Assembly (NCBI GenBank): GCA_027306995.1 | Contig: DAHUXS010000021.1 | Coordinates: 62,001-126,000 of the forward strand | Direction: 5' to 3' | Length of the DNA: 64,000 bases | Source of the DNA: Lysobacter sp. | Lineage (GTDB): Bacteria > Pseudomonadota > Gammaproteobacteria > Xanthomonadales > Xanthomonadaceae | Shown here: one piece after another, positions 35,037 through 59,019 of the stretch | Layout of the letters: every line of letters starts with the position of its first letter | Position numbering within the stretch: position 1 is the first letter of the stretch | Program-made: the position numbers and the translations under genes | The notes under the pieces: generated by a model | Database searches by the model: none | Seen by the model: the letters and a program-made list of their open reading frames with translations, nothing else | What the model was told of the DNA's origin: nothing

Positions 35037-35927
35037 TCAGGGATCGAGCGACAAGCGCATCTGCATCTGCTGCGATTCGCCGGGGGCCAATACCTGTACC
35101 CCGGCCATCGCCAGGTCGGCCTCATCGAGATTGAACGCATCGATCGCGTGGCCGACGGGCTCGACGCAGAAGCAGTCGTCGTCGCTCGGCGCGTACACAT
35201 GCAGTCGTGAGATGGCGGGTGACGCCGTCAGGCGCAAGCGATAACCGAGCGAAGGCTGCTCGATGACCGCGGTGCCGACCCAGCCATCGAAACTGCAGTC
35301 CATCCCGCTGCGATGGAGGGTCCGACGATCAAGCTGCATGTCCTCGGTGATGGCCACGCGTCCGGTTGGAGCAGGGTCGATCGGGAGGACTCCGGAATCA
35401 AGCGCCACCTCGGCCTCAACGTCTGCAAACAGCCGGGTTGCGGCATCGCAGGGGAAGCAGGGGTGCAGGCCAATCCCGCAAGGCATCGCTTCATGGCCGC
35501 TGTTGCGCACGACAAGTGAAATCGTCAGTCCGTCGTCATCCAGTTCAAAGGTCTGTGTTGCCGTGAACGGCCATGGCCACGCGTCTGCGTGATGAGCACA
35601 TGCGAGGGTGAGTGCGGCATCCGTGCTTGTATCGACTTGCCAGGGCGTGCGCCAGACGAAACCGTGCAGCGGTGTCGGGTGCGGCCCAATCGGCGGGAGC
35701 ACGACCTCGCGCCCGCGGAAGACAAAACGACCGCCACGCAGGCGACCGAAAAACGGCGCCACCGGGAAACACGCCGTTTCCAGCACGTCACCTGCTTCCG
35801 TGGAAGTCGAACGCAGCAGTGGCAGCCAGCCCCCGTTGCGTTCAATCTCGCAATGCGTCAGCGCGCCGCCAAGTTCGGGGCGCACTATCGCGCGCCATTT
35901 GCCGCAGTGCAGGGCGATCTCCGCCAT
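35037..35927 (-). CDS. Aldose 1-epimerase family protein
   Basis: A 296-residue sugar mutarotase-like protein interconverting alpha and beta anomers, most likely of galactose. Catalytic candidates are His in GIGLHPCFPCD and Glu in CFCVEPVGHAIDAFN. No signal peptide, so it acts in the cytosol. It begins one base after the GH27 gene stop, so it is last in the receptor-GH27-epimerase operon and would convert alpha-anomer released by the retaining glycosidase. Confidence 0.85.
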   Translation of the reverse strand: MAEIALHCGKWRAIVRPELGGALTHCEIERNGGWLPLLRSTSTEAGDVLETACFPVAPFFGRLRGGRFVFRGREVVLPPIGPHPTPLHGFVWRTPWQVDTSTDAALTLACAHHADAWPWPFTATQTFELDDDGLTISLVVRNSGHEAMPCGIGLHPCFPCDAATRLFADVEAEVALDSGVLPIDPAPTGRVAITEDMQLDRRTLHRSGMDCSFDGWVGTAVIEQPSLGYRLRLTASPAISRLHVYAPSDDDCFCVEPVGHAIDAFNLDEADLAMAGVQVLAPGESQQMQMRLSLDP

Positions 35928-35928
35928 T

Positions 35929-37077
35929 TCAATGCAACGGCGTGACCTTCAGGAGAACGACACCATGCCGCGATGGCGTCGCTTCGAGCTTGTCATTGAC
36001 GACACCCAAGTCGCGCTTCGCCCACAGATCGCGCACGCTTGCCTTGCGTGGCAGTCCGAGCTCCTTGAGGGTGATGCTGCCCGCCAGTTCGCGCTCGCTG
36101 GTGCTGAAGAAACCCACGGCGTAGCTGCCATCCGCCAGCGGCTTCAGCCAGATCGACATCGGTCCGGCTTGCTTGATCCGTCGCGCCTGCTTGCCCAATG
36201 CATCCTGGTCGATGGCGAGGACTTCGCGGTTGGTGAGCACGCCAAGGGTCTCGTCATCCATGCTGACGAGATCGTTGCCGGCGATCAGCGGCGCCGCGAG
36301 CATGCTCCAGAGACTGATGTGGAAGCGGTTTTCCTCGAGCGTGAGGTCGCCATTGCCGACTTCGAGCATGTCCGGATCGTTCCAGTGGCCGGGACCCGCG
36401 TACTGTTCCAGTCCGGATTGTGCGAAGCCACGATGCGCAATGCTCTCGAACGAAGCCGAAATGTCTTCCGTGGTGCGCCACAGGTTGCCGCCGACCGATG
36501 CGCCCCAGGTCCACACGCCACCCCAGCCGTACTGACACAGGCTGTAAACGATCGGACGGTCGGTCCTGCGCAGCGCGTCGTGCATCTTCGCGTACAGGCG
36601 TGGCATGTCTTCGATCTTGTAGAGCTTGCGCGCACCGCACCAGTCGTACTTGAGATAGTCGACGCCCCAGGAGGCGAACATCTTCGCGTCCTGTTCCTCG
36701 TGGTCGAGGCTGCCGGGACGTCCCATGCAGGTGGTGGGCCCGGGGGAGGAATAGATGCCGAATTTCAGGCCCTTGCCATGGATGTAATCGCCCAGCGCCT
36801 TCATGTCCGGGAATTTGTCGCTCGGATGCAGCACGCCGCTGGCATCGCGTTGGCCTTGCCAGCAATCGTCGATGGTCAGGTACACGTAGCCGGCATCGCG
36901 CATGCCATTGCTCGCCATTTCGTCGGCGGTGCGCCGGATCAGCTTGTCGCTGATCCGGCAATTGAACTGGTTCCAGCTGTTCCAGCCCATTGGCGGTGTC
37001 CGCGCAAGATCGCTGTCACCCGCGGATGCGGCGGGTGACAGCAGGGCCAGGAACAGGATCGCAAGCAGGATACGCAT
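35929..37077 (-). CDS. Secreted GH27 alpha-galactosidase (or alpha-N-acetylgalactosaminidase)
   Basis: A 382-residue exported glycoside hydrolase of family 27. Signal peptide to about 19; N-terminus of the mature enzyme is PPMGWNSWNQF, the family hallmark. Asp145 in YLKYDWCG is the nucleophile and the Asp in LWRTTEDI the acid/base. TIDDCWQ and C-terminal beta domain also present. GH27 holds both alpha-galactosidases and alpha-GalNAcases; the residues that split them lie in a loop I cannot assign safely. It follows the TonB receptor by seven bases. Confidence 0.92.
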   Translation of the reverse strand: MRILLAILFLALLSPAASAGDSDLARTPPMGWNSWNQFNCRISDKLIRRTADEMASNGMRDAGYVYLTIDDCWQGQRDASGVLHPSDKFPDMKALGDYIHGKGLKFGIYSSPGPTTCMGRPGSLDHEEQDAKMFASWGVDYLKYDWCGARKLYKIEDMPRLYAKMHDALRRTDRPIVYSLCQYGWGGVWTWGASVGGNLWRTTEDISASFESIAHRGFAQSGLEQYAGPGHWNDPDMLEVGNGDLTLEENRFHISLWSMLAAPLIAGNDLVSMDDETLGVLTNREVLAIDQDALGKQARRIKQAGPMSIWLKPLADGSYAVGFFSTSERELAGSITLKELGLPRKASVRDLWAKRDLGVVNDKLEATPSRHGVVLLKVTPLH

Positions 37078-37084
37078 GGCGTGC

Positions 37085-40000
37085 TCAGTGGAACTCGTAG
37101 CGGAACACCAGGTAGGTGGTCCGTGGCGCTTGATATTGCGATGGGGTGTACCAGTTGTTCAACTTCGTGACCCCGCCGTTTGCGTAGTCGTAGTCACTGT
37201 AACCGTTGTTGCGGTTGGTAAGCGCACGCGCGTTCGTGAGGTTCTGCACGCTCAGGTCGATGCTGAACTTGTTGTGCGTGCCGATGTTGCGGTCGTAGCC
37301 GAGGCTGGCATCGAGTTGCCACAGCCACGGCAGGCGACCGCTGGTGCCGGCGGGAGTAATCTTGCCGGGACTGTTGACGTCGCAGTAATGGCCGTAGGCG
37401 CCCCACTGGTATGAGTAGCTGTTCTCATCGGGGTTGAGGCCGTAGCAGGTGAGCGGTTCGCCCGATTGCACGTTCAGCACCGCACCCACGCGCAGGCCGT
37501 TCCTGAAGTAATACACGCCCGATGCCGTGATCTTGTGGCGCACGTCGTCCACCAGGTTTCCGTATGCACCAAAGGTGTTGTCGGGGATGTAGTAGAGGTC
37601 GTTCTGGCCGATGTAACCCGAGCCGTAGCCGCCACCTTCCTGTATGGACAGGTAGCCGTTGTCGTTGCCGAACGAACGCGTCCAGGTGTAGCTCAAGCCG
37701 AGGTACCACGGCTCCTCCGCGCTGCGTGCATGGTTGAGGTCGAACGTGACGTGGAAATACCTGTGCTTGGGTTTGGGCAGGCCGAACGCCGAGGCCGGAA
37801 TCGTCATCGAAGCCAGTGAGCCGTCGCCGCGGAAATCACGGAGCACCGTGACATCCTCTCCCGGATTCAGCACGAAGCAATTGCCCGGATCGGTGTAGTT
37901 CGGGTAGCCGTGCGATTGCGCCCATTGTTCGATGCCGACCGACCAGCAGGTCGTGTTGATCACCCGCTTGAGTTGCGAATAGCCGAAATCGACCTGTCCA
38001 GTCCAGCTTCGACCAAGGCGCTTTTGTGCGTACAACTGCAGCTCGGTCACGGAAGGCGCCTTGAGGTTGGTGGTCGCCACCTCGTAGTCCTTGGCCGGAA
38101 TGCCGTTCTGGCCCGGGTAGGTATAGTCCGGGCCGAGCTGGGTCAGACCGGTCGGTGCCTTGGTCACCGGGTCCATGCCGGTGTAGGTGTACCACTTCGA
38201 TTCCGTGAGATTCGCGCTGGCAACGCCGAAGGCGAAGTCCGCGGGCATCGACAACGAGTAACGACCAATGTTGGCGCCGACCTTGAAGCTGGAATCGCCC
38301 TTCACGTCCCAGGACACGCCGAGGCGCGGCGATAGTGTCGGGAACGAGAACAGCGAACCGTTGCGCGCATTGTGATTGATGAAGCGGTCGAAGCGCAGGC
38401 CGCCGTACGCCACCACCTTGTCGGACACGTTCCAGTAATCCTCGAGGTAGGCGCCCTCGTTGATCGAATACATCTGGCCGAACTGGTGGTTGAAGTCCCA
38501 TTGCACGTAGTTGCCGGCGGGAATCGTCGCGCCATTGAGTGCGGTGAACGAAGTCGATGCCGTCTTGTAGGTGTAGATGCCGGCGAACACCGAATGCCAG
38601 TCCTGCTGCACGAAATGGGTATAGCGTTCGGCGCCGAAGCGGATCTTGTGATCGCCGATATGCCAGGTCACGTCGCCCTTGTAGCCGCGCCGCCAGTAGT
38701 CGGTGGGCAGGAAGTTGGTCTGGCGATCCTGGATGCCGATGTTGGTGTACGTCGACTGGCCGGTGAGCGTCTGCACATAGGGCGGATTATCCGTCCCGTA
38801 GCCGCGGTCCTGGATCCGACCGAGGAATCCACCCATCAGACGCACTTCGAGATTGTCGGTGATGTTCCAGTGGTAGTTGCCGATCAGGAAGCGCTCGCGC
38901 GTGGGCGCCGGCTGCGACACCGACGACAGCTTGCCGACATTGGTCGAATAGGTTCCCTTGAGCAGGTAGCTCCAGCTGGCGCTGTTGCTGCGCTTGTCCG
39001 ATGCGATCAGGTTGAGGGTCTGATCGCTGGTGATGTTCCAGGTCAGGTTGAGCATGATGCTCTTGTTCTTGCTCTTCGATTCCGTGTAGCGGCTCTGGCT
39101 GTAGCCGTAATTCAAATAAGATGGCGTGTCGCCGAACAGGCCGAAGGCGAACAGCTTGTCCTTCACGATCGCGCCCGATGCCCATAGGTAATGCGTCACG
39201 GCGGCATCAGTGTGGTTGTGGCTGGCGTAGCTGACGTAGTTGCCGTTACCGTCCTTGAAGTCCTTGGGTTGCGGCCTCAGCGTGCTGGAAGTCGGCGGGG
39301 TGTAATACAGGGAGTAGCCGGCCTTGAAGTCGTTGCTGCCTTGCCGCACCGTCTGCGACATCACGCCACCGGTGGCATTGGTCCACGATGCGCCGAAACT
39401 GCCGGCGAGCACCTCGGTGTTGGCGATCGCTTCGCGCGGCAACTGGCTGAGGGCGCCGAGTGAGCTCTTGTCGTTGGTGATGTCGAATTCGTTGAGGTAG
39501 TAGCGGTTTTCAGCAGGCGTCGCGCCGGCCAGCTGCACCAGGCCGGTTCCGTGGCGGTCGTAGCGCACGTTCGAGCGCAGCAGGGCGATGCTTTCCGGGT
39601 TTGCGGCCGCCGACAGGGGCAACTCGTTGACCAGCTCGCGACTGTAGCTGCTCGACATTTCCGGAGTCGTGGTGTCGATCGTGATTGTGCTGGTCGCCGC
39701 TTTGCCGGTCACGACGACCTTGCCGAGGTTGCCGCCGTTGTCCGTCGCCGCTTCCACGTTGGCGACGGCGCTATCGCTGTTCGGCTTGACGATGACATCG
39801 CGCGTGATGGTCTTGCCGTCCAGGGTCACCGTGACCACGTAATGGCCAGGATTGAGGCCCGATGCACGATAGCGGCCCTGCGCATCGAGCTGCAGTTCGC
39901 GCCTCAGGCCCGTATCCGGGCTGGTGAGCACCACTTGCGTCTTGCCGTTGTTGGCTGGGACCGCGCCATAGAGGCCACCGGTGATCGATTGCGCGGCGAC

Positions 40001-40090
40001 GTCATGCGCCATCGACAAACCGACGATCAGGCCGACGGCCAACAGTGATTTGCGCAAGGTCCGGTTGCGTGATGCATGCGTCGTGTTCAT
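37085..40090 (-). CDS. TonB-dependent outer-membrane receptor, Oar-like (first)
   Basis: A 1001-residue receptor importing a carbohydrate across the outer membrane. Signal peptide to about residue 34 (AHDVAAQS), a carboxypeptidase-regulatory-like domain (about 35-110), plug domain beginning near KVVVTGKAATSTI, then a 22-strand barrel rich in aromatic residues. Unusually it ends FRYEFH: one His after the expected terminal Phe. It heads an operon with GH27 and the epimerase, with a candidate operator overlapping its promoter. Confidence 0.9.
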   Translation of the reverse strand: MNTTHASRNRTLRKSLLAVGLIVGLSMAHDVAAQSITGGLYGAVPANNGKTQVVLTSPDTGLRRELQLDAQGRYRASGLNPGHYVVTVTLDGKTITRDVIVKPNSDSAVANVEAATDNGGNLGKVVVTGKAATSTITIDTTTPEMSSSYSRELVNELPLSAAANPESIALLRSNVRYDRHGTGLVQLAGATPAENRYYLNEFDITNDKSSLGALSQLPREAIANTEVLAGSFGASWTNATGGVMSQTVRQGSNDFKAGYSLYYTPPTSSTLRPQPKDFKDGNGNYVSYASHNHTDAAVTHYLWASGAIVKDKLFAFGLFGDTPSYLNYGYSQSRYTESKSKNKSIMLNLTWNITSDQTLNLIASDKRSNSASWSYLLKGTYSTNVGKLSSVSQPAPTRERFLIGNYHWNITDNLEVRLMGGFLGRIQDRGYGTDNPPYVQTLTGQSTYTNIGIQDRQTNFLPTDYWRRGYKGDVTWHIGDHKIRFGAERYTHFVQQDWHSVFAGIYTYKTASTSFTALNGATIPAGNYVQWDFNHQFGQMYSINEGAYLEDYWNVSDKVVAYGGLRFDRFINHNARNGSLFSFPTLSPRLGVSWDVKGDSSFKVGANIGRYSLSMPADFAFGVASANLTESKWYTYTGMDPVTKAPTGLTQLGPDYTYPGQNGIPAKDYEVATTNLKAPSVTELQLYAQKRLGRSWTGQVDFGYSQLKRVINTTCWSVGIEQWAQSHGYPNYTDPGNCFVLNPGEDVTVLRDFRGDGSLASMTIPASAFGLPKPKHRYFHVTFDLNHARSAEEPWYLGLSYTWTRSFGNDNGYLSIQEGGGYGSGYIGQNDLYYIPDNTFGAYGNLVDDVRHKITASGVYYFRNGLRVGAVLNVQSGEPLTCYGLNPDENSYSYQWGAYGHYCDVNSPGKITPAGTSGRLPWLWQLDASLGYDRNIGTHNKFSIDLSVQNLTNARALTNRNNGYSDYDYANGGVTKLNNWYTPSQYQAPRTTYLVFRYEFH

Positions 40091-40106
40091 GTGGCTTCCC
40101 TAAAAA

Positions 40107-40123
40107 GTCATATAAATCATATA
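40107..40123 (-). promoter_or_regulatory. Candidate GntR-regulator site in the GH27 operon promoter
   Basis: On the minus strand TTATATGATTTATATGA, a direct repeat of TTATATGA. It matches 13 of 17 bases of TTGTATGATAAATATGC at 41115-41131 before dgoD. It overlaps the likely -10 (TATATG; -35 TTGCGT, 18-base spacing) of the receptor gene, so binding would block transcription. AGGGA follows as ribosome-binding site before ATG 40090. Confidence 0.55.
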
Positions 40124-40288
40124 AACGATAATCAGGGCGCAACGCAACAATCAAGACCGGAGCGGCAGTTTTCGACAATAAAAATCGTGAATGCGGCGCG
40201 TGGCCAACAAAGCGCAAGATGGTCCTGTGGCCGGCTTTCGATTGAAGCCGGTTTCAGCGCAAGTTCGTGCAACTACTGGCTTTCGATT

Positions 40289-41026
40289 TCAGCCCTTTGC
40301 GCCGCGACGCGCCCGCGGTTTGTTCGCGGGCGTGTTGTCGATCAACTGCATCACTTCGCTCAGCAATGCTTCCATCGCACGGAAAGCACGCACGCCATCG
40401 CCGGCGGCGATCGCGGTGTAAACGCGGCGATGATCGGGCAAGTTGGCGCGTGCCACGCCCTTGGCGCGATTGGTTCGCGGGATCGAGAAACGCAATGCGG
40501 TCGCAACCAGGTCGCGCAGCTGCGCATAGAGGCGGTTGCCGCTCGCGCGCAGGATCGCGACATGGAACGCGATGTCGGATTCGAGGGGATCGTCATCGCC
40601 ATATTCGGCGGCGTGCATGCGTTCCAGTGCGTCCTCGATGGCCTGCAACGCGGCTGCATCGGCCAGGTGCGCCGCGAGCATCGCGGCGCGCGGCTCGATG
40701 GCGAGGCGCATCTGGGTGAATTCCGCAAGAAGCTGCGGCGAAAACTTGCGTTCCAGCGTCCAGCGCAGGACATCGGGATCCAGCAGGTTCCACTGCGCTT
40801 CCGGCTCGACGATCGTGCCGCGGCGCGGGCGGGCGCTGAGCAGGCCCTTGGCCGTCAGCATCTTCACGGCTTCGCGCAACACGCTGCGGCTCGCCTGGAG
40901 TTCAATGCAGAGCTGCGCTTCGGTCGGGAAGGGACGATCCGGTCCGTAGACCCCGGTGACGATCGCAACGCCCAATGTTTCGACCAGTCGCCGTGTCAGG
41001 TTGTTGCTGTTCGCGCTGCGCGTCAT
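40289..41026 (-). CDS. FadR-subfamily GntR transcription regulator
   Basis: A 245-residue regulator with an N-terminal winged helix (about 12-75: PFPTEAQLCIELQASRSVLREAVKMLTAKGLL) and an all-helical FCD ligand domain (about 95-230; metal-type His/Asp positions such as DIAFHVAIL and DHRRVYTAI). FadR-type regulators near dgoD usually sense sugar acids or their lactones. Divergent from dgoD and downstream of the GH27 operon start; two copies of a shared motif at 40107 and 41115 are its likely sites. Confidence 0.88.
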   Translation of the reverse strand: MTRSANSNNLTRRLVETLGVAIVTGVYGPDRPFPTEAQLCIELQASRSVLREAVKMLTAKGLLSARPRRGTIVEPEAQWNLLDPDVLRWTLERKFSPQLLAEFTQMRLAIEPRAAMLAAHLADAAALQAIEDALERMHAAEYGDDDPLESDIAFHVAILRASGNRLYAQLRDLVATALRFSIPRTNRAKGVARANLPDHRRVYTAIAAGDGVRAFRAMEALLSEVMQLIDNTPANKPRARRGAKG

Positions 41027-41114
41027 CTGGGTGCCGTGTGTGGAGCGGGTTGCAATCGTTCCGGAGTCAGGATTCTGCCAGATCCGCCCTATGCCGCGAT
41101 GGTTTTGAATTATT

Positions 41115-41131
41115 TTGTATGATAAATATGC
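41115..41131 (+). promoter_or_regulatory. Candidate GntR-regulator site before dgoD
   Basis: TTGTATGATAAATATGC; the core TTGTATGATAA is one base off the TNGTNNNACNA pattern typical of FadR-type regulators. It lies 36 bases before the dgoD start, in the divergent gap with the regulator gene, and contains the best -10 (TATGAT) of that gap. Shares 13 of 17 bases with the site at 40107. Confidence 0.55.
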
Positions 41132-41166
41132 TCGCGTGAACCGCGCCCCTGCGCGAAGAGGAACCC

Positions 41167-42312
41167 ATGGGCAAGATTGCTCGCATCGAAACCTTCCGCA
41201 CGCCGCCGCGCTGGCTCTTCGTTCGCATTGAAACGGAATCCGGTGCGGTCGGGTGGGGCGAGGCCAGCCTCGAAGGTCATGCCGAAGCGGTGGAAGGCGC
41301 GTTCGCCGCGCTGCGTGATCGTTTCATTGGCGCGGATGCCGCGAACATCGAGGACATCTGGCAGACCGCGTACCGGCTTGGCTTCTATCGTGGCGGGCCG
41401 GTATTGATGTCGGCGCTGTCGGGACTCGACCAGGCCTTGTGGGACATCAAGGGGCGCACGCTTGGCGTTCCGGTCTGGCAATTGCTGGGTGGGCGCGTGC
41501 GCGATCGCGTTCCGGTCTATGCATGGATCGGCGGCGACCGTCCTTCCGAAGTCGAACATGCCGCGCGGGAACGCATGCGCCAGGGCTTCAAGGCAGTGAA
41601 GATGAACGCCACCGAAGACATCGACTGGTTGCCCAGTCCGCGTGCCTTCGACGACGTGCTCGAACGTGTCGCCGTGGTGCGCGATCTCGGACTCGACGTC
41701 GCTCTCGATTTCCACGGGCGCGTGCACAAACCGGCTGCGCGCCAGCTCGCGCGTTTGCTCGAGCCGCTGCAACCCTTGTTCATCGAGGAACCGTTGCTGG
41801 GGGAACATCCGGAAGCGATCCGCCAGTTCGCGCAATCGACGTCGTTGCCGGTCGCGCTCGGGGAGCGCCTCTACAGCCGCTGGGACTTCAAGCCGTTCTT
41901 CGAGGCTGCAGCAGTCGATGTCATCCAGCCGGACTTGAGCCATGCCGGCGGGATCTCCGAATGCCGGCGCATCGCCGCGCAGGCGGAAACCTACGATGTC
42001 GCGTTGGCGCCGCATTGCCCACTCGGGCCGATCGCACTGGCGGCCTGCATGCAGGTCGGACTGGCGTCGCCCAATCTCGCGATCCAGGAAATGTCACTCG
42101 GGATCCACTACAACACCGATGGCTACGACCTGCTGACTTATTTGCGCAATCCGCAGGTATTCGCGATCGGTGATGGCATGGTCGATGCACTCGTTGGCCC
42201 GGGGCTCGGCATCGAGATCGACGAGGCCCGCGTGCGCGAAGCCGCGCGCACGGGCCACGTCTGGCGCAATCCGGTCTGGCGCGGCGCCGACGGCAGCATC
42301 CGCGAATGGTGA
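41167..42312 (+). CDS. dgoD: D-galactonate dehydratase
   Basis: A 381-residue enolase-superfamily enzyme converting D-galactonate to 2-keto-3-deoxygalactonate (De Ley-Doudoroff route). Metal ligands are the Asp in VALDFHGR and the Glu in FIEEPLLG and VALGERLYS; the catalytic His is in LAPHCPLGP. YHGRVH-type residues and AWIGGDRP also match the DgoD branch. AGAGGA precedes ATG. The family also contains other acid-sugar dehydratases, so substrate is strongly suggested rather than proven. Co-directional with GH35, 36 bases apart. Confidence 0.88.
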   Translation: MGKIARIETFRTPPRWLFVRIETESGAVGWGEASLEGHAEAVEGAFAALRDRFIGADAANIEDIWQTAYRLGFYRGGPVLMSALSGLDQALWDIKGRTLGVPVWQLLGGRVRDRVPVYAWIGGDRPSEVEHAARERMRQGFKAVKMNATEDIDWLPSPRAFDDVLERVAVVRDLGLDVALDFHGRVHKPAARQLARLLEPLQPLFIEEPLLGEHPEAIRQFAQSTSLPVALGERLYSRWDFKPFFEAAAVDVIQPDLSHAGGISECRRIAAQAETYDVALAPHCPLGPIALAACMQVGLASPNLAIQEMSLGIHYNTDGYDLLTYLRNPQVFAIGDGMVDALVGPGLGIEIDEARVREAARTGHVWRNPVWRGADGSIREW

Positions 42313-44189: not shown

Positions 44190-44195
44190 CGATGC

Positions 44196-51115: not shown

Positions 51116-54100
51116 TCAGGGGGAAACGATTGCGGCACTGTCGCCCTGCTGGCCGATCAGCAAGGCATTGGCCCAGTTGCCGCAGACCTTGGGCGATTGC
51201 GCGCCGAGCGTGCGCAGGCTCAGGGTGTGGGCGCCGCGGATGTCGAGTTCGGGTTTGACCACGCCCGGCGCCTTCACCACGCCGCTGTCGTAGAGCAGGC
51301 GACCGTCGCTCCACACCTGGAAGCGCAGGCTGCCGGCATCGCGACAGCTGTCGTCGACGCCGAGGTCGGCGCGCAACAAACGCCAACCGCCATCGAGTTT
51401 CAGGTCGATGCGACTGCTGGCGCCAACACCAAGACCATGCTGGAAGCGCAGGCCGTTCATCTGCAGCGGCGACTTGCCGTCGTGGGCGTGGTCGCGCGCA
51501 ACGCTGTTCGCCAGCTTTGCCGGCACTGGCAGTTCGGAGAGATAGCGTTGCTGTTCTGGGCGATCGCTGGCCTGGTGCTCGAGGATGTGGAAGGTCGACA
51601 GCGTGATCGGGCCGACGTCGCGCGGTTGCAGGGCATCGTAGGCACGCGTGTTGTCGCCGCCCGCCGCGGCCAGCACCATCGGATCGGTGTTGCTGGCGTT
51701 GTCGCCTTCGGGGTTCTGCACGCTCAGCACGCGGAAGCGCAGCAGGCGTCCGGCGTGCGGCGCGAATTCGATCTTCTGTGTGCCTTGCAACAGCTTGAGC
51801 TGGCCGCGCGCGATCGGTTCACCCCATTCGCCGTTGCTGTCGGCCATGTAGATCTCGTAGTCGCGGATCTGGCCGTACTTCCAGTTCTTGTCGTTGCGCG
51901 GCGCCAGTTCGATGCCGTCGATCAACTTGCGCTCGCCGAAACCGATGGTCCATTCGTGCGCGCCGGTGTGGATCGCCTGGTTGCGCACGGTGCGGAACCA
52001 GGTGCCGGCATCGTCGTCGAAGGCGTTTTCCAGCGCGTGTCCGGGTTCTTCGGCCGGACGATTGACCACCACCATGCTGTCGGCGGGCAAGGCGCGACCC
52101 AGTGCCGGAGCGCTCGGGAACACGTCGTCGGCAGGCGCGGCTGCAGTCGGGATATCGAGGCGGATATCGTGCGCGCTGCGGATGTCGAACGCGGCCGTGC
52201 GGACATGCACGCTGCCATGGCGATCGTTGCCATCGAAGGTCCAGCCCTCGTTCGCCGTTGCCAGCGCCTTTTGATCGGCGAGGAAAGGCAGTGTGCGGCC
52301 ATCGATCTGCACGGCATTGGGACGCTGGCGACTCAACACGCGCAACGCATAACGACGCTGCGGCAATTGGCCGGCGTACTGGCCTTTCACGCCATCGAGA
52401 TGCACGCGGACTTCGCCGCTGCCCTGTGCCGGCGCCTGCACGGTGATCGTCTGCTCGCTCGATTCACCCTGCTGGTAGCGGCGCGTGTTGCCGTCGTCCT
52501 CGTACAGCGTGTAGAGCGATTCGCCTTGCGGGTAGAGGTCGAACGTCACTTCGTCGAGCGGCTTTTCGCCGTCGAACAGCATCTCCGGATACATCGGCAG
52601 GATCGCGCCGGCGCGCACGAAGATCGGCAGCGTCTTCAGTTCCACCTGGCGATCGATCTGCATGCCTTGCGCGGGCGCGCTCACCTGGCGGCCATCCCAG
52701 TAATCGATCCAGCGGCCCTGCGGCAGGTGGATGTCGCGACGCCAGCCGCGGCTCGCGGCCTGGCTGCGGTAGACCGGTGCGACCAGCAACTCGCGACCGA
52801 GCAGGAATTCGTATTTGTGCGCTTCGGTCAGCGCCTGCGGATCCTGCGGGTTGTCCCACATCAGCCCGCGCACGATCGGCGCGCCGCTGGTTTCCGCTTC
52901 GCGCGTCAGTCCGTACATGTACGGCGTCAGGCGCATCTTCAGCTTGAGGTAGTCGCGATTGATGCTGCGATACGGTTCGTCGAACGCCCACGGATGCTTG
53001 CGTTCGTTTGCCGACCAGCCCGACATGCCCATCAACACGGGGGTGAAGCTCTTCCACTGCAGGTCGCGGGTGAAGGTTTCCGGGCTGCCGCCGAAGATGC
53101 CGTCGACATCGCCGGTCGCATACGCGTAACCGGACAACCCCGAACCGATGAGTGTCGGAATGTGCCAGCGGATGTAGTCCCAGCTGCCGCTCTGGTCGCC
53201 GGTCCACGCCACCGCGTAGCGCTGGATGCCGGTCCAGCCCATCACCGTCCATAGGAACGGACGCGAATCGGAATTGTTGAGGATGCCGTCGTAGGCGGAG
53301 TGGTTCGCATCCATCGCGAACTGGTAGCCCTTGCCTGTCCAGGCAACGTCGAGCTTCTGCACGCGAGTGCCGGCGGTGCCGACTTCCCACGCGATCTTGG
53401 CGACGCCGTTTTCCGTCCACAGCCCGGTGCGGAACCCGTATTTCTTCAAACCTTGCACCGTCTTCGGCAGGTCGGTGTAACCGCAGCCATAACCGTCGTT
53501 GGGCAGGATCCAGCCGCCCGGCATGTCGTTCTCGCGATATTTCTTGGCGACGCTGTCGATGACATCGGGCGTGGTGCCGGTCGGACCATCGCTCCAGCCG
53601 GCGGGCACGGTGCCGGGCTTCTTCTTGTTGTCGCCGTCGTTGTAGCAATCGGCATCGCCGTAGGACAGCGCCCAACGCGGCAGCATCTTCGCGCGGCCGG
53701 TCAGCGCTGTGTAGCGATCGAGCAATGCATGGAGATCGGCGCCGACGAAGTAGTAGGCATCGAAACGATCTTCCTTGTGCAGCAGCGTCGTCGCATCGGA
53801 CTGGCGCAGATCGTAATTGCCGTCGCTCCAGGTGTTGCGCAACATGCCCCAGCCGCGCGAGCTCAGCAGCATCGGCGCGGGGCTTGGGCGATCCCCTTCC
53901 TCCCAACCACCGGAATAGGAGATCGGCAGTTCGCGACCCTTGAACTCGAAACGACCGTTCTGCTGGCCGCCGCCGAAGAAACGTTCGCCGGCATCGCTGG
54001 ACAGCACTTGTACGCTCTGGTCTTTCGCGAGATCGAGCGGTTGCAGTTCGTGCCACAGCGCGGTCGCCTTGCCGCCTTCGATGCGATCAAGCGACAGCCG

Positions 54101-54508
54101 TAGCGGATGGCGTTGCACATGCAGCACCAGCGCATCGGTGCGGATGCGGATCTCGTTGGTGTCCTGTTCGAGCGTTGCAGTGGTCTTGGTCGCGGCTTGC
54201 GGCATCACGATCGGCGTCGCCTTGTCGCCCGACGGCGACAGCAGGCCGTTGCGTCCGGCCTGGACGCGGATCAAGTCGGCACGCAGGACATCGATGCGCA
54301 GGCGGGCGCCGCTGGCGGTGGTGATCTCCCATGCGGATCCGGCGTCATTGCCGGTGGCGGGTGCGACTGCACGAAGATCGCCGACGGCATCGGCCAGGGC
54401 CGGCTGGCCAATCGCCAGCAACGACACCGCCATGGCGACCGCCAGTCCGTTCTTGCGTAGTGCGTGACTCGACAAACCGACCCCCGAAGTACCGTTTGTA
54501 AGCGGCAT
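51116..54508 (-). CDS. Secreted GH31 glycosidase with two galactose-binding-type C-terminal domains
   Basis: A 1130-residue exported enzyme: Ala-rich signal peptide (about 22-45), N-terminal beta-sandwich, GH31 barrel, proximal beta domain, DUF5110-like part, then a discoidin/CBM32-like module (about 805-950) and an NPCBM/CBM51-like module (about 957-1130). Asp387 in KLDVAWTG and Asp438 in WTGDQSG are the likely nucleophile and acid/base. Resemblance to the GH31 branch with alpha-GalNAcases (KLDVAW, TGDVDGIFGGSPETF) and the adjacent aga genes suggest alpha-N-acetylgalactosaminidase; alpha-galactosidase or glucosidase remain possible. Start at 54508 is uncertain. Confidence 0.85.
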   Translation of the reverse strand: MPLTNGTSGVGLSSHALRKNGLAVAMAVSLLAIGQPALADAVGDLRAVAPATGNDAGSAWEITTASGARLRIDVLRADLIRVQAGRNGLLSPSGDKATPIVMPQAATKTTATLEQDTNEIRIRTDALVLHVQRHPLRLSLDRIEGGKATALWHELQPLDLAKDQSVQVLSSDAGERFFGGGQQNGRFEFKGRELPISYSGGWEEGDRPSPAPMLLSSRGWGMLRNTWSDGNYDLRQSDATTLLHKEDRFDAYYFVGADLHALLDRYTALTGRAKMLPRWALSYGDADCYNDGDNKKKPGTVPAGWSDGPTGTTPDVIDSVAKKYRENDMPGGWILPNDGYGCGYTDLPKTVQGLKKYGFRTGLWTENGVAKIAWEVGTAGTRVQKLDVAWTGKGYQFAMDANHSAYDGILNNSDSRPFLWTVMGWTGIQRYAVAWTGDQSGSWDYIRWHIPTLIGSGLSGYAYATGDVDGIFGGSPETFTRDLQWKSFTPVLMGMSGWSANERKHPWAFDEPYRSINRDYLKLKMRLTPYMYGLTREAETSGAPIVRGLMWDNPQDPQALTEAHKYEFLLGRELLVAPVYRSQAASRGWRRDIHLPQGRWIDYWDGRQVSAPAQGMQIDRQVELKTLPIFVRAGAILPMYPEMLFDGEKPLDEVTFDLYPQGESLYTLYEDDGNTRRYQQGESSEQTITVQAPAQGSGEVRVHLDGVKGQYAGQLPQRRYALRVLSRQRPNAVQIDGRTLPFLADQKALATANEGWTFDGNDRHGSVHVRTAAFDIRSAHDIRLDIPTAAAPADDVFPSAPALGRALPADSMVVVNRPAEEPGHALENAFDDDAGTWFRTVRNQAIHTGAHEWTIGFGERKLIDGIELAPRNDKNWKYGQIRDYEIYMADSNGEWGEPIARGQLKLLQGTQKIEFAPHAGRLLRFRVLSVQNPEGDNASNTDPMVLAAAGGDNTRAYDALQPRDVGPITLSTFHILEHQASDRPEQQRYLSELPVPAKLANSVARDHAHDGKSPLQMNGLRFQHGLGVGASSRIDLKLDGGWRLLRADLGVDDSCRDAGSLRFQVWSDGRLLYDSGVVKAPGVVKPELDIRGAHTLSLRTLGAQSPKVCGNWANALLIGQQGDSAAIVSP

Positions 54509-54525
54509 GTGAAAGCGATGGGCCG

Positions 54526-54555
54526 ACTCTAGGGCAGTATTTTTCGAAAAGTCAA
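54526..54555 (-). promoter_or_regulatory. Promoter of the GH31-receptor operon
   Basis: Minus strand: TTGACT (54555-54550), 18-base spacer containing TTTCGAAA, then TAGAGT (54531-54526). Start of transcription would be close to the ATG at 54508, leaving a very short leader and weak ribosome-binding sequence. Confidence 0.5.
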
Positions 54556-54739
54556 CAAAAATGAAAATAAAGTGCAAGATTAATGCGGTAATCGAAAGAT
54601 AAGGTAAGCCTATGGTTTCGGAATCGCGCATTCAGGATGTAAAGAGAACCCTTGAGCGTTGTGAGCTTGTGCTTGGCAGGGGAGGATCGATAACAAAACA
54701 GAAACTTTCTATTTATTTTCGATATTTGACATTTCGAAA
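54542..54739. promoter_or_regulatory. Paired TTTCGAAA sites in the divergent GH31 / agaS gap (candidate AgaR operators)
   Basis: TTTCGAAA occurs at 54542-54549 and 54732-54739. On the strand of each flanking gene it directly follows TTGAC (54555-54550 minus; 54726-54731 plus TTGACA) and is preceded by TTTATTTTC, so the two promoters are near-duplicates read outward. A further CGAAAG lies at 54593-54598. As I recall, enteric AgaR sites are built of TTTCRTTT-like repeats; agaR is encoded four genes away. The rest of this 271-base gap is AT-rich with no gene seen. Confidence 0.55.
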
Positions 54740-54779
54740 GAAAATGGCCATCGTTGCCCGGTCCCCTCAGGCTCCAACC

Positions 54780-55934
54780 ATGCACGCAACTCCGCTTTCA
54801 GACGCGACGACCTGGCAGCAGTTGGGCGGCGGCCATACCCACGCGGAAATCGCCCAGCAGCCGGCGTTGTGGGACGAACTCGCCAACATCCTCGAACGCG
54901 AACAGGCAGCGCTCACGGCATTCCTTGGCGACTGGTTGAGTGATCCGCGGAACCGCGTGATCTTCACCGGCGCTGGCAGTTCCGGTTTCGTTGCCGAGAT
55001 GGTCGCCGACCGCGTCAATGCGCAATGGCCGGCGGACGTGCGTGCGATCCACACGACTTCCTTGCTGACGCATCCCGACGATTACCTGATGCGCGATCGC
55101 CCGACGCTGCTGGTGTCGTTCGGCCGCAGCGGTTCGAGTCCGGAAAGCGTCGCTGCCGTCGACCTGGTGCGCGACAAGGTCGCGACCACGCGTTTCCTCG
55201 ACATCACCTGCAATGCCGAAGGCGAACTCGCGCGTCGTGGTCGCGGTCGCGACGATACCTTCACCTTGCTGATGCCGGCGGCGAGTTGCGATCGGGCGTT
55301 CGCGATGACCAGCAGCCTCACCTGCATGTTGCTGGCCGCGCTTGCGACGTTCGATGCCGCGCCGTGGCCGCAGCGTCTCGCCCAGTTGCGCGCGGTCGCC
55401 GCGCTCGGACAGGAAGCGCTGGGGCAGTGGGAAAACGTGCTCGCGCAACTTGCTGCGAAACCGCATGCGCGCGTGATCTATCTTGGCAGCGGCCCGCTCG
55501 AAGGCTGGTCGCGGGAAGCCGCGCTCAAGTTGCTGGAACTCACCGCCGGTCGCGTGCCGGCATTCGCGAATACACCGCTGGGGTTCCGCCACGGTCCGAA
55601 GTCGCTGCTCGACGGCGAGACGCTGGTGGTGGTCGCACGCAGCGCGCAGCCGCTCGCACGACGTTACGAACGCGATTTGCTCGACGAATTGCGCCGCGAT
55701 GGCGTGGCCGGACAGGTGTTGTCGATCGGTCCGATGATCGACGGCGATGCCGATGACCTGGCCTTGCGCGTGCCGGAGTTGCCCGACGCGTGGCTGGCGC
55801 CGGTCTGGCTGACGTTCGCGCAGCGCTATGCATTGCGGCGTTCGACCGCGCTCGGGTTCACGCCAGACAATCCGTTCCCGGACGGCACGGTCAATCGCGT
55901 CGTGCAGGGCGTGACCATCCATCGCCATGGCTGA
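54780..55934 (+). CDS. agaS: AgaS: galactosamine-6-phosphate deaminase/isomerase
   Basis: A 384-residue SIS-domain enzyme converting galactosamine-6-phosphate to tagatose-6-phosphate plus ammonia. Strong resemblance to E. coli AgaS: VIFTGAGSSGFVAEMVAD, LLVSFGRSGSSPESVAA, MTSSLTCMLLA, FRHGPKSLLDGETLVVV and the terminal GTVNRVVQGVTIH. ATG 54780 gives the family N-terminus; the frame is open upstream into the regulatory gap. First gene of agaS-kinase-agaZ-agaR. Confidence 0.93.
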   Translation: MHATPLSDATTWQQLGGGHTHAEIAQQPALWDELANILEREQAALTAFLGDWLSDPRNRVIFTGAGSSGFVAEMVADRVNAQWPADVRAIHTTSLLTHPDDYLMRDRPTLLVSFGRSGSSPESVAAVDLVRDKVATTRFLDITCNAEGELARRGRGRDDTFTLLMPAASCDRAFAMTSSLTCMLLAALATFDAAPWPQRLAQLRAVAALGQEALGQWENVLAQLAAKPHARVIYLGSGPLEGWSREAALKLLELTAGRVPAFANTPLGFRHGPKSLLDGETLVVVARSAQPLARRYERDLLDELRRDGVAGQVLSIGPMIDGDADDLALRVPELPDAWLAPVWLTFAQRYALRRSTALGFTPDNPFPDGTVNRVVQGVTIHRHG

Positions 55935-56880
55935 GCCGGTCGGCGAGCGCGGCATGCATCTCTGGTACGGCGTCGATGTCGGCGGCACCAAGATTGAGCT
56001 CGTCGCCTGTGATGACGCGTTGGAGGTCGTGCATCGCCAACGGGTGACGACGCCGACGCAGGACTATCCGGCCTTCCTCGATGCCGTCGCGACGCTGGTG
56101 GCGAATGCCGACGCGGAACTCGGGCGGCACTGCGATGCCATTGGCATCGGCCTGCCGGGCGTGGTCGATCGCGAAAGTGGATTGGGTTTCAGCGTGAATA
56201 TCCCGGCGATCACCGGCAAACCGGTCGTCGCGGATTTGCGCGCGCGCCTGCAGCGACCGCTGTGCATCGGCAACGATCTGCAATGCTTTGCCATCTCCGA
56301 AGCGAACGGCGGTGCTGCGGCCGGCTATCCGACGATGATCGGCGCCATCCTCGGCACCGGCGCCGGCGGCGGCTATTGCATCGATGGGCGACTGGTGTCC
56401 GGATACAACGGCCTCGGCGTCGAATGGGGGCACTGGACGGTGCCGGCGACGCTGGTCGCGAAATACGGATTGCCGATCCACGACTGCGCCTGCGGCTTGC
56501 AAGGCTGCGTCGAATGCTATGTCTCCGGAACCGGACTGGCACGACTGCATCGCCATCTGGGCGGCGACGCGGCCGACGCCGGTGCGGTGATCGCGGCGGC
56601 ACGGTCGGGCGATGCGGCGGCGACGCGTGCACTGGCAATCCATCTCGACGTGCTCGGTCATGCGCTGGCCGATGTGGTGAAAGCTTTCGATCCGCATGTG
56701 ATCGTGCTCGGTGGTGGACTGTCGAAACTGGAATCGCTGTATCGCGATCTTCCGACGGCGATCGCCACGCATCTTTTCCGCAATACCCGGGTTCCGCCGA
56801 TCCTGCCGCCGGTGTTCGGCGATGCCGGCGGTGCCCGCGGCGCCGCGTTACTGGCGCGCCAGCATGGCGTGCTGCCGTGA
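55927..56880 (+). CDS. ROK-family sugar kinase, probable GalNAc/GlcNAc kinase
   Basis: A 317-residue kinase. ATP loop VDVGGTKIEL near the N-terminus, catalytic Asp in CIGNDLQCF, and the ROK zinc motif in CACGLQGCVECYVSG. It resembles NagK (N-acetylhexosamine kinase). Position between agaS and agaZ points to phosphorylation of N-acetylgalactosamine or galactosamine after uptake without a PTS. It overlaps agaS by eight bases if ATG 55927 is used; ATG 55954 is the alternative. Confidence 0.82.
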   Translation: MAEPVGERGMHLWYGVDVGGTKIELVACDDALEVVHRQRVTTPTQDYPAFLDAVATLVANADAELGRHCDAIGIGLPGVVDRESGLGFSVNIPAITGKPVVADLRARLQRPLCIGNDLQCFAISEANGGAAAGYPTMIGAILGTGAGGGYCIDGRLVSGYNGLGVEWGHWTVPATLVAKYGLPIHDCACGLQGCVECYVSGTGLARLHRHLGGDAADAGAVIAAARSGDAAATRALAIHLDVLGHALADVVKAFDPHVIVLGGGLSKLESLYRDLPTAIATHLFRNTRVPPILPPVFGDAGGARGAALLARQHGVLP

Positions 56881-56910
56881 ATCCACCCACAGAACCGTTC
56901 GGAGCCTGAC

Positions 56911-58212
56911 GTGTCCCTTCTTCAGTCCATCATCGACGCACATCGCGCTGGCGAAGCGGTCGGCATCTGCAGCGTCTGCTGCAGCAACGACCAGGTGCTG
57001 CTCGCCGCGATGGATGTCGCCAGCGAATACGGCACACCCTTGCTGGTCGAAGCAACGTCGAACCAGGTCGACCAGTTCGGCGGCTACACCGGGATGACGC
57101 CGGTGCAGTTCCGCGAATACCTGCTGGAACTTGCGCGCAGGCATGGCTTCCCGCGCGAGCGCTTGATCCTCGGCGGCGACCATCTCGGTCCCAATGCCTG
57201 GCAGAAATTGCCGGCCGCGGAGGCGATGGCGCATGCGCAGGAACTGATCCGCGCCTATGTCGCCGCCGGTTTCGAGAAGATCCATCTCGATTGCAGCATG
57301 TCCTGCGCCGATGATCCGGTGCCGTTGCCCGACGAGATCGTCGCCGAGCGTTCGGCATTGCTCGCGCGCATCGCCGAAACGACGGCCGCGAACGCCGGAT
57401 TGCCGCCGCCGGTCTACGTGATCGGCACCGAAGTGCCGACGCCGGGTGGCGAGGCATCGCTGGATGCCGGCTTGCAGGTGACGACGCCGCAGGCGGCGGC
57501 CAAGACGCTGGATATCCATCGGCAGGCGTTCTCCGCGCCCGACCTTGAAGCCGCGTGGCAGCGCGTCATCGCGATGGTGGTGCAGCCGGGCGTCGATTTC
57601 GATCATAGCGATGTCCATCACTACGATCCGCAAGCGGCGAAAGAATTGTCGCGCTTCCTCGAGGCGCAACCGCGCATCGTCTTCGAGGCGCATTCCACCG
57701 ATTACCAGACGGAAAGCTCGCTGCACGCGCTGGTGCGTGATCATTTCGCCATCCTCAAGGTCGGCCCGGCCGCGACCTTCGCCTATCGCGAAGCCCTGTT
57801 CGCGCTGGCGGCGATGGAGGACGCGCTGGTGCCGGAGGCCGAACGCTCGAATCTCGTGGCCGTGCTCGACGACGTCATGGTGCGCAATCCGAAACACTGG
57901 CAGCAGCACTACCACGGCGGTGCCCACCAGCTGCAGCTGCTGCGCAAATACGCACTGAGCGACCGTTGCCGTTATTACTGGGGCGATCCCGCGGTGCAGG
58001 TAGCTGTCGATACGCTGGTCGCCAACCTGCGTCGCCAGGTGCCGCCGAAGATGCTGGTCAGCCAGGTTTTGCCGGAGCAGGCACGCGCGCTGTTCGAAGA
58101 CCGCCTGCAGGACGATCCGCTGGCACTGGTGCGCGACAAGGTTGCCGGGCGGCTGGGCGAATATGCCCGCGCCTGTGCCCGTAATCGCGCCGCAGCGCGC
58201 GTGGCAGGATAA
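56911..58212 (+). CDS. agaZ: AgaZ/KbaZ/GatZ family protein (tagatose-6-phosphate kinase or aldolase partner)
   Basis: A 433-residue protein of the GatZ/KbaZ family: SVCCSNDQVLLAAMDVA, GGDHLGPNAWQ, KIHLDCSMSCADDP, VYVIGTEVPTPGG and VFEAHSTDYQT. Traditionally called the non-catalytic subunit of tagatose-1,6-bisphosphate aldolase; comparative work on Shewanella aga pathways proposed that AgaZ is tagatose-6-phosphate kinase. No catalytic KbaY/AgaY gene lies nearby, which favours a role other than aldolase chaperone here. Confidence 0.88.
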   Translation: MSLLQSIIDAHRAGEAVGICSVCCSNDQVLLAAMDVASEYGTPLLVEATSNQVDQFGGYTGMTPVQFREYLLELARRHGFPRERLILGGDHLGPNAWQKLPAAEAMAHAQELIRAYVAAGFEKIHLDCSMSCADDPVPLPDEIVAERSALLARIAETTAANAGLPPPVYVIGTEVPTPGGEASLDAGLQVTTPQAAAKTLDIHRQAFSAPDLEAAWQRVIAMVVQPGVDFDHSDVHHYDPQAAKELSRFLEAQPRIVFEAHSTDYQTESSLHALVRDHFAILKVGPAATFAYREALFALAAMEDALVPEAERSNLVAVLDDVMVRNPKHWQQHYHGGAHQLQLLRKYALSDRCRYYWGDPAVQVAVDTLVANLRRQVPPKMLVSQVLPEQARALFEDRLQDDPLALVRDKVAGRLGEYARACARNRAAARVAG

Positions 58213-58221
58213 TCTCAAGTC

Positions 58222-59019
58222 ATGCAGTCAACGCCGCCCGTCATGCGCAATACCCGACGCCGCAGGGAACAGATCCTCCAGTCGCTGGTCGAGCATGGCA
58301 GCGTCCATGTCGCCGATCTGGTCGAGCGCTTCGACGTGTCGTCGGTCACCATCCGCAGCGACCTCACCCACATCGAATCGCAGGGGCTGGCCACGCGCAC
58401 GCATGGCGGCGCGACCCTGGTCCGCACGCCGCCGCAGGAACAGGACATCCACGAGAAGGATGTGCTGAACCATCCGATCAAGGACGCCATCGGCGTGCAC
58501 GCGGCGCAGCTGGTCAAGCCCGGCGACAACATCATCATCGATTCCGGTTCGACCACGATGATGCTGGCGCATCACCTGCGCGATCACCACGATCTGATCG
58601 TGATGACCAACGGCCTCAACATCGCCTGGGAACTTGCGAATGCACCTGGCGTGGAATTGCGCCTGACCGGTGGGCTGCTGCGCAAGCAGGCGTTGTCGCT
58701 GCAGGGCGCGCAGGCCGAAGCCAGCCTCAATTCCTATGGCTTCGACACCTTGTTCCTCGGCGTCGACGGGTTCGACCTGCAATTCGGCCTGACCACCCAC
58801 GACGAAGCCGAAGCCAACCTCAACCACCGCATGGTCGAGCGCGCGCGCAAGGTGGTGGTGCTGACCGATGCATCGAAGTTCGGGCGCGTCAGCCTGCATC
58901 GCATCGCCCGGCTCGACCAGGTCCACACCGTCATCACCGACGGCAGCATCAGCAGCGAATACAGCGAGGGCCTGCAGCGCCTCGGGATTGAATTGATCGT
59001 GGTGGACGCGGGCGCCTAG
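58222..59019 (+). CDS. agaR: AgaR: DeoR-family repressor of aga genes
   Basis: A 265-residue regulator with a DeoR helix-turn-helix (about 10-65: RRREQILQSLVEHGSVHVADL, VSSVTIRSDLTHIE) and a DeoRC sugar-phosphate sensor (about 85-245: IIIDSGSTTMMLAHHL, TGGLLRKQALSLQG, FLGVDGFD). Last gene of the aga group, ten bases after agaZ, consistent with local autoregulation through the divergent promoter at 54509-54779. The stop codon shares a CTAG with the convergent msrC-type gene. Confidence 0.88.
   Translation: MQSTPPVMRNTRRRREQILQSLVEHGSVHVADLVERFDVSSVTIRSDLTHIESQGLATRTHGGATLVRTPPQEQDIHEKDVLNHPIKDAIGVHAAQLVKPGDNIIIDSGSTTMMLAHHLRDHHDLIVMTNGLNIAWELANAPGVELRLTGGLLRKQALSLQGAQAEASLNSYGFDTLFLGVDGFDLQFGLTTHDEAEANLNHRMVERARKVVVLTDASKFGRVSLHRIARLDQVHTVITDGSISSEYSEGLQRLGIELIVVDAGA

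Follow-up and report, generated by a model that had tools for sequence, protein, structure and literature searches.

The block of genes at positions 35037–59019 of the analysed Lysobacter sp. DNA is likely to consist of two adjacent catabolic units, one for N-acetylgalactosamine (GalNAc) governed by AgaR and one for galactose governed by a GntR-type regulator. The analysed stretch, referred to below as the window, is 64 kb long and corresponds to positions 62001–126000 of contig C11 of a 2.83 Mb genome with a completeness of 99.98%. The aga core occupies 44196–59019 and the galactose unit 35037–44189, and the two are probably under separate control. In the aga core, the genes agaS-agaK-agaZ-agaR face those for a glycoside hydrolase (GH) of family 31, TonB-dependent receptor 2, a tetratricopeptide repeat (TPR) protein with a sulfotransferase domain, and GH109. 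The galactose unit contains gntR, the pair dgoD–GH35, the run receptor 1–GH27–epimerase and an operator-like motif of its own. Gene families were assigned by Pfam and NCBIfam scans of the open reading frames (ORFs) in 35037–59019, and close relatives by PDB search. A first-pass annotation had described the block as a single galactose/GalNAc utilisation region, and every family it named was found by these scans where it had been placed. The glmS gene (33230–35026) immediately precedes the block, and the 64 kb contain no tRNA genes. The features are as follows.

35037–35927 (−): aldose 1-epimerase (mutarotase-like), third gene of the receptor–GH27–epimerase run (Pfam PF01263, 129 bits)
35929–37077 (−): GH27, predicted alpha-galactosidase with a signal-like N-terminal segment (Pfam PF16499, 226 bits)
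37085–40090 (−): Oar-type TonB-dependent receptor 1 (PF25183, 42 bits; CarboxypepD_reg at cut-off)
40108–40125 (+): sequence resembling a GntR operator, upstream of receptor 1, with TCATATAAA in two copies (WTCATAYAAA)
40289–41026 (−): GntR/FCD (FadR-type) regulator, probably DgoR-like (PF07729, PF00392)
41114–41123 (−): GntR operator-like site 2, between gntR and dgoD (WTCATAYAAA)
41167–42312 (+): DgoD, D-galactonate dehydratase (NCBIfam NF010624, 572 bits, cut-off 311)
42306–44189 (+): GH35 beta-galactosidase (PF01301, 378 bits; PDB beta-galactosidases, 569 bits)
44196–45560 (−): GH109, predicted alpha-N-acetylgalactosaminidase with an RRxFL N-terminus (PF21252, 273 bits; PF01408; PDB 2ixa, 510 bits)
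45557–47551 (−): TPR protein with a C-terminal protein-tyrosine-sulfotransferase-like domain, no signal-like segment (Sulfotransfer_3 PF13469, 158 bits)
47585–47617 (−): hairpin resembling a terminator, in the gap from receptor 2 to the TPR-sulfotransferase (13 pairs, 10 of them G-C, T-rich tail)
47635–51138 (−): Oar-type TonB-dependent receptor 2 (PF25183, 83 bits; Plug)
51116–54433 (−; listed ORF to 54631): GH31, relative of alpha-N-acetylgalactosaminidases, with F5/8C (CBM32-like) and NPCBM domains (PDB 6m76/7f7q/7f7r)
54542–54555 (−): AgaR operator-like site TTGACTTTTCGAAA (exact pattern match)
54726–54739 (+): AgaR operator-like site TTGACATTTCGAAA (exact pattern match)
54780–55934 (+; listed ORF from 54612): AgaS, predicted galactosamine-6-phosphate deaminase/isomerase (TIGR02815, 408 bits; SIS domain)
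55927–56880 (+): ROK kinase, probable GalNAc kinase AgaK (PF00480, 238 bits)
56911–58212 (+): AgaZ, predicted tagatose-6-phosphate 4-epimerase (TIGR02810, 602 bits, cut-off 569)
58222–59019 (+): AgaR repressor, DeoR family (NF040755, 328.8 bits, cut-off 260)

The division into two units rests on the separate operator-like motifs and on the rarity of DgoD beside the aga core of related bacteria. A scan of a genome collection with the GH31 sequence confirmed 148 loci, 80 of which were kept and compared by tblastn and gene clustering. The flanks reached at most 10 kb and some contigs were short, so that the per-gene locus counts are lower bounds. The recurrent layout is MFS (major facilitator superfamily) transporter–amidohydrolase–agaR–agaZ–ROK–agaS, divergent from GH31–TonB receptor–GH109. 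AgaR was seen in 55 of the 80 loci, AgaS in 54, AgaZ and ROK in 53 each and GH109 in 48; an amidohydrolase cluster was present in 45 and an MFS cluster in 44 (one member of each was typed). The linkage of AgaS, kinase, AgaZ and AgaR in the window and its relatives is that expected for an aga pathway without a phosphotransferase system (PTS). Synteny weakens the single block of the first-pass annotation. Much of the layout of the aga core recurs in Lysobacteraceae and Burkholderiales; of the galactose genes, DgoD was found in 1/80 loci (L026, from the genus of the window), GH27 in 0/80 and GH35 in 6/80. L. silvestris (L046, of the same genus as the window) and G269 (L025, L167) have a receptor gene after GH31 that is itself followed directly by glmS, with no GH35, GH27, DgoD or GH109 between the aga core and glmS. 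The distance from glmS to receptor 2 in the window is 12.6 kb.

The carriers of such loci are Lysobacteraceae, Oxalobacteraceae and other Burkholderiales, Rheinheimera and Shewanella. In a sample of 297 Lysobacteraceae genomes, a strong GH31 match was obtained in 50; in one of them the match is split in two, and in another it is truncated by the end of a contig. Some of these genomes share contigs with several of the 80 loci, so these counts overlap. AgaZ is present in all 50 GH31-bearing genomes and lies within 9 kb of GH31 in 48 of them. Within the genus of the window, GH31 occurs in 5 of the 17 sampled genomes. Some loci show features of their own. A DUF5077–DUF3472 protein is encoded near GH31 and the receptor in 19/80 loci (L027:20077–21342 and 18 others; one was typed). 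In a Rudaea locus (L052), the aga set is rearranged and more divergent (AgaZ 51%, AgaS 37%) beside a GH31 gene with 77% identity. A record titled Bacillus subtilis SK7B5 (L048) carries a Stenotrophomonas-like aga locus with a GH31 of 75% identity, and this assembly is probably mislabelled or contaminated.

The genome G289 (L026, L166) indicates where the genes of the galactose unit may belong. Receptor 2 is followed there by genes for the TPR-sulfotransferase, GH35, a short-chain dehydrogenase/reductase (SDR), DgoD, a symporter, a lactonase, GntR, DgoK and a KDPG/KHG-type aldolase. Judged by its predicted functions, this gene run next to the aga core is a De Ley–Doudoroff cluster. The GntR regulator of the window shares 86% identity with the orthologue inside the G289 dgo cluster. 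Beyond the dgo cluster, G289 encodes a GH3, a sugar transporter, a xylose-isomerase-like barrel, an FGGY kinase, a GH95 and a GH31-like gene product (L166:8463–19499). In the genome of the window, contig C13 encodes DgoK, a lactonase, DgoA (over the family cut-off), an SDR, a LysR regulator and a symporter, the last being 72% identical to its G289 counterpart. All the De Ley–Doudoroff steps are thus represented: DgoD in the block, and the dehydrogenase, lactonase, DgoK and DgoA on C13. The dehydrogenase candidate is a generic SDR and is therefore the weaker step. Since DgoD, GntR and GH35 lie in the block and the remaining dgo genes on C13, the accessory unit looks like a part of a galactose route.

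The operator-like motifs separate the two units as well. In the galactose unit, the motif WTCATAYAAA precedes receptor 1 and dgoD and has 2 sites in the 64 kb against 0.04 expected, an expectation that overstates the significance and so weakens the split, because the motif was picked after inspection of the same promoters. In G289, a single TCATAYAAA is located before dgoD (L166). In the aga core, the listed ORFs of GH31 and AgaS share bases at their 5′ ends. Coding bias, homologue lengths and sequence place the probable starts near 54433 (GH31) and 54780 (AgaS), which leaves a divergent promoter region of ~350 bp. The set of 53 AgaS–GH31 intergenic regions (from 52 loci and from the window, including some adjoining coding bases) has TCGAAAGAAA as its commonest 10-mer, found in 35 of the 53, and expectation-maximization (EM) analysis of these regions gave the motif TATTTGACATTTCGAAAG. 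The pattern TTGACWTTTCGAAA has 2 perfect sites genome-wide, both between agaS and GH31. With two mismatches, 5 further sites occur in the genome, compared with 4 for the reversed control pattern. In the site at 54542–54555, TTGACT doubles as the first hexamer of the sole promoter-like match in 35000–54900, where 4.5 such matches would be expected, so they are fewer than chance. AgaR may therefore act at the agaS/GH31 divergent promoter through these putative operators. Control of the galactose unit by AgaR was considered and rejected, as no strong motif site and no exact TTGACWTTTCGAAA site are present there. Control of the N-acetylglucosamine (GlcNAc) cluster by AgaR was likewise dismissed, as the genome has no exact site outside the agaS–GH31 region.

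The last step of the GalNAc pathway is probably the epimerisation of tagatose-6-phosphate to fructose-6-phosphate by the product of agaZ. This assignment is based on the conserved GatZ residues and on the absence of a class II aldolase partner. An ending of the E. coli type through tagatose bisphosphate needs the class II aldolase KbaY or GatY. No class II aldolase (PF01116) was found in the genome of the window, which removes, by logic only, the KbaY/GatY partner for AgaZ. AgaZ is present in 73 of the 297 Lysobacteraceae genomes, and none of these 73 has a class II aldolase over the cut-off; PF01116 matches occur in 5 of the 297, 3 of them over the cut-off and all 3 in genomes lacking AgaZ. 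The role of a non-catalytic aldolase subunit was accordingly rejected for AgaZ. The window AgaZ has matches to Cys20, Glu44, Asp87, His88, Glu171, His257 and Lys279 of GatZ. Six of these active-site residues are kept in 54/54 AgaZ proteins (53 loci and the window) and Cys20 in 50, with gaps in the other 4. An epimerase of family PF08013 from Agrobacterium was reportedly the subject of a 2015 paper. The metal and base residues of GatZ are named in a passage of PMC11907403, which also has GatZ and KbaZ supporting the epimerisation of fructose-6-phosphate to tagatose-6-phosphate in E. coli in vivo and cites the reverse reaction. Two results tell against the epimerase assignment. AgaZ and the class II aldolase are not associated (Fisher P = 1, the aldolase being rare overall at 3/297), and two AgaZ genomes hold PF01116 fragments of 20–22 bits.

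That AgaZ is instead a tagatose-6-phosphate kinase, with a class I aldolase cleaving tagatose-1,6-bisphosphate, appears improbable. It has been proposed and is still repeated in parts of the literature (PMC4694137; PMC12118421), the 2025 GalNAc review PMC12118421 giving AgaZ, in the section concerned, as a putative kinase and as an aldolase subunit. A passage of a kinase survey (PMC1079889) reports no detectable kinase activity for AgaZ or GatZ and an aldolase-type barrel, and E. coli GatZ and KbaZ are treated as C4 epimerases in the relevant part of PMC11907403, with the active-site residues retained here. Our aldolase search covered class II. Two of the three PfkB proteins of the genome were typed; they resemble fructokinase and ribokinase, both below the cut-off. 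A kinase working together with a class I aldolase is consequently still a conceivable, if less likely, ending, which counts against the proposed one.

The two glycosidases of the aga core are both predicted to release alpha-linked GalNAc. The best PDB relatives of the GH31 protein are 6m76, 7f7q and 7f7r, entries for one GH31 alpha-GalNAcase that we take to be from Enterococcus faecalis. With phmmer they scored 376–379 bits over residues 96–775, whereas the runner-up GH31 in the PDB scored 179 bits with its best stretch at 452–781. The whole catalytic part is similar and both catalytic Asp positions are aligned; these are presumably the nucleophile and the acid/base, with which the numbering is consistent. 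The protein is a relative of this enzyme and a likely alpha-GalNAcase, although it differs in its Gram-negative origin and in having F5/8C and NPCBM domains. This sharpens the first-pass assignment to GH31, and the same comparison disfavours an alpha-glucosidase. In the GH109 protein, the C-terminal domain (PF21252) and the Gfo/Idh NAD fold (PF01408) are both present; with 2ixa as its nearest PDB relative, it is likely to be an alpha-GalNAcase too. Its RRxFL N-terminus presumably represents a twin-arginine-like motif. The closest PDB relative of GH27 is the alpha-galactosidase 6f4c (322 bits), and inspection of the sequence did not reveal the Ser/Ala pair that we take as a marker of alpha-GalNAc-type GH27 enzymes. 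The first-pass assignments of GH109 and GH27 to terminal alpha-GalNAc and alpha-Gal therefore stand, as does the placing of AgaS and AgaZ in galactosamine-6-phosphate catabolism. In the part of PMC11992087 describing the B. theta enzymes, GH109 favours blood group A and small products, and GH31 acts on desialylated mucin only. Such differing substrates would give one locus a reason to keep both enzymes.

The block does not contain a deacetylase gene. One NagA over the cut-off is encoded in the genome, on contig C16, in a GlcNAc-type cluster together with SIS, GntR, HAD, LacI and MFS proteins, a glucokinase, a receptor and GH20. The MFS protein of this cluster is over the gluP cut-off and below the NagP cut-off. 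NagA can replace AgaA in E. coli, according to a passage of PMC12118421.

The sequence itself establishes the gene identities, the synteny, the positions of the motifs and the lack of a class II aldolase. On this footing we propose the following route for the first unit. Exported GH31 and GH109 would free GalNAc from alpha linkages, with Tn-type O-glycoproteins or glycopeptides as the probable substrates, and receptor 2 would move GalNAc or small glycans through the outer membrane. GalNAc would be phosphorylated by AgaK, and GalNAc-6-phosphate deacetylated by the one clear NagA of the genome, from the separate GlcNAc cluster. AgaS would then yield tagatose-6-phosphate, which AgaZ would convert by C4 epimerisation into fructose-6-phosphate. 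AgaR is predicted to repress the unit from the agaS/GH31 intergenic region. In the second unit, under GntR, galactose would be freed by GH35 and GH27, galactosides would be imported through receptor 1, and the epimerase would provide the correct galactose anomer. Galactose would be degraded by the dehydrogenase, lactonase, DgoD, DgoK and DgoA in the De Ley–Doudoroff route.

Further observations weigh against this scheme. The GH31 loci lack a match to agaR, agaZ, agaS or ROK within reach in 22 of the 80 cases, of which 20 fall among the 28 most distant loci (L077–L104). AgaS is below the named-family cut-off (TIGR02815, 408 vs 529 bits), and the closest named family of the ROK protein is GlcNAc kinase, with 292 bits below the cut-off of 380. 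The block contains no inner-membrane GalNAc permease, and the MFS transporter of the relatives (L030 as the query) gave only partial matches of 25–27% in the window's genome. WTCATAYAAA is absent from the C13 dgo cluster. The 83-bp gap between receptor 2 and the TPR-sulfotransferase gene holds, on the coding strand, the 13-pair hairpin with a T-rich tail (47585–47617), whose fold has a z of −5.1 against shuffled sequences. It is the strongest stem of the terminator-like sites in 35000–54900, which number 16 against 16.1 expected. This hairpin makes it doubtful that GH31, receptor, sulfotransferase and GH109 form one operon, as had been initially assumed, and GH109 and the sulfotransferase may or may not share the GH31 transcript. 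In four Pelomonas/Paucibacter loci (L060, L061, L069, L076), the GH35 gene comes after that for GH109 in the same orientation (41–56% identity), so the beta-galactosidase may belong with GalNAc release.

This last arrangement agrees with the first-pass view of one locus that dismantles one glycan with alpha-GalNAc, alpha-Gal and beta-Gal residues (from mucin, of blood-group type, or fungal galactosaminogalactan), here extended to an ending at an E. coli-type tagatose-bisphosphate aldolase. All of the activities adjoin in the window, the core of G289 likewise has GH35 and DgoD beside it, and core-1 glycans have beta-Gal on alpha-GalNAc. We nevertheless consider a single-glycan locus unlikely, for the aga core abuts glmS free of galactose genes in L046, L025 and L167, the galactose genes are scarce in the 80 loci, the operator-like motifs divide the block and the genome has no class II aldolase. 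Moreover, no endo-acting hydrolase of a GalNAc polymer was seen among the Pfam-scanned block proteins. Galactosaminogalactan finds no support in the block, as no GH114- or GH135-type domain, which we take to mark galactosaminogalactan enzymes, was present in these proteins; no genome-wide search for them was made. A Tn-type O-glycoprotein is a better guess for the substrate. The aga core might also be used to scavenge surface glycans of bacteria or arthropods or to recycle GalNAc polymers rather than for animal mucin, an option with appreciable but less than even weight. Its carriers include Lysobacter, Stenotrophomonas, Massilia, Janthinobacterium and Undibacterium, which are mostly environmental bacteria. 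On the other side, the sequence does not separate these glycan sources, and the characterised relatives were assayed on mucins and blood-group glycans in the experiments described in part of PMC11992087. The block may or may not be specific for mucin.

The block belongs to a known kind of locus and is newly resolved here into what are probably two units, each with its regulator, with two predicted alpha-GalNAcases, a probable epimerase ending and an unexplained gene pair. A proteobacterial aga pathway without PTS, of the Shewanella type, was reportedly described by Leyn et al. in 2012. In common with the window, it has a single locus that combines a kinase-based entry of GalNAc with AgaS, AgaZ, AgaR and a receptor of the outer membrane. 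The window locus differs from it in having no permease or deacetylase gene and its genome in having no class II aldolase, and it adds the GH31 and GH109 alpha-GalNAcases and the TPR-sulfotransferase beside the receptor. The non-PTS pathway is cited in passages of PMC4694137 and PMC12118421. The polysaccharide utilization locus BT4240-50 of B. theta, as presented in part of PMC11992087, likewise combines a GH109 alpha-GalNAcase, a beta-galactosidase and a GalNAc kinase with outer-membrane uptake genes, and we propose that the window locus works in a similar manner. No SusD and no M60-like peptidase were present among the scanned proteins of the window locus, which has GH35 in place of GH2 and an ROK in place of an APH-type kinase. 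Its GH31 alpha-GalNAcase is inside the locus, whereas that of B. theta is separate (BT3169; same source). AgaZ shares the seven GatZ residues with the GatZ/KbaZ C4 epimerases of PMC11907403, as given there in part, but a GatY/KbaY partner was not found in the window's genome. The locus makes a disputed step of GalNAc catabolism testable, as a section of the review PMC12118421 has tagatose-6-phosphate pass first to a kinase and then to a bisphosphate aldolase. The retention of AgaZ in 73 Lysobacteraceae genomes with no class II aldolase over the cut-off bears on its role as a terminal epimerase. GH31 alpha-GalNAcases apparently occur in many environmental bacteria and are possibly useful for the deglycosylation of Tn-type glycoproteins. 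Among the titles and abstract openings listed in a search of open-licence PMC articles, none describes such a locus in Lysobacteraceae.

The locus further draws attention to the repeated pairing of a TPR-sulfotransferase with a TonB receptor. The TPR-sulfotransferase gene (45557–47551, minus strand), which combines TPR and Sulfotransfer_3 domains between receptor 2 and GH109, was overlooked by the first-pass annotation. It lies on the same strand as the GH109 gene and overlaps it by 4 bases. In a PDB search with a profile of 14 sulfotransferase domains, protein-tyrosine sulfotransferases took rows 1–7 of 18 (E 3.3e-20 to 1.2e-14), followed by CurM. The nearest solved relatives are 8w5z, 5wri and 3ap1; unlike these, the window protein is bacterial, has no signal-like segment and is fused to an N-terminal TPR half, and its activity is predicted. 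A combination of a TPR substrate arm with a catalytic domain would resemble O-GlcNAc transferase. The AlphaFold model of the protein (two sequences) was not used, residues 380–664 having a predicted local distance difference test (pLDDT) value of <50.

A sulfotransferase search of the 297 genomes matched 263, similarity to the TPR part alone included, and the best 30 loci were examined (L105–L134). In all 30, including that of the window, a TonB receptor gene is adjacent on the same strand. The genome of the window encodes two Sulfotransfer_3 proteins, and the second also adjoins a receptor (L001:7180–11690). At 27 of the 30 loci the receptor is L001-like, and these probably represent one old pair; at the other 3 (window, G289, G249) it resembles receptor 2. 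One TPR-sulfotransferase subfamily is thus paired with two quite different types of TonB receptor. It is conceivable, if rather speculative, that the TPR-sulfotransferase is a cytoplasmic protein-tyrosine-type enzyme dedicated to the adjoining receptor, and that nutrient uptake in Lysobacteraceae involves sulfation of the receptor or of a surface partner. Among the titles and abstract openings listed in further searches of open-licence PMC articles, none pairs such a sulfotransferase with a TonB receptor, and these searches gave no stated function for the pair. A general pairing of all TPR-sulfotransferases with TonB receptors was abandoned, as among 20 hand-picked distant paralogues our own receptor profiles detected a receptor next to the gene in 3 and with one gene between in 2. 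Ten neighbours of the distant paralogues were typed with Pfam and comprise one receptor and six M4 or M28 peptidases. These peptidases, five M4 and one M28 (L139, L142, L144, L145, L148, L155), carry PPC domains, are presumably secreted and are encoded beside the distant TPR-sulfotransferase gene or one small gene away from it.

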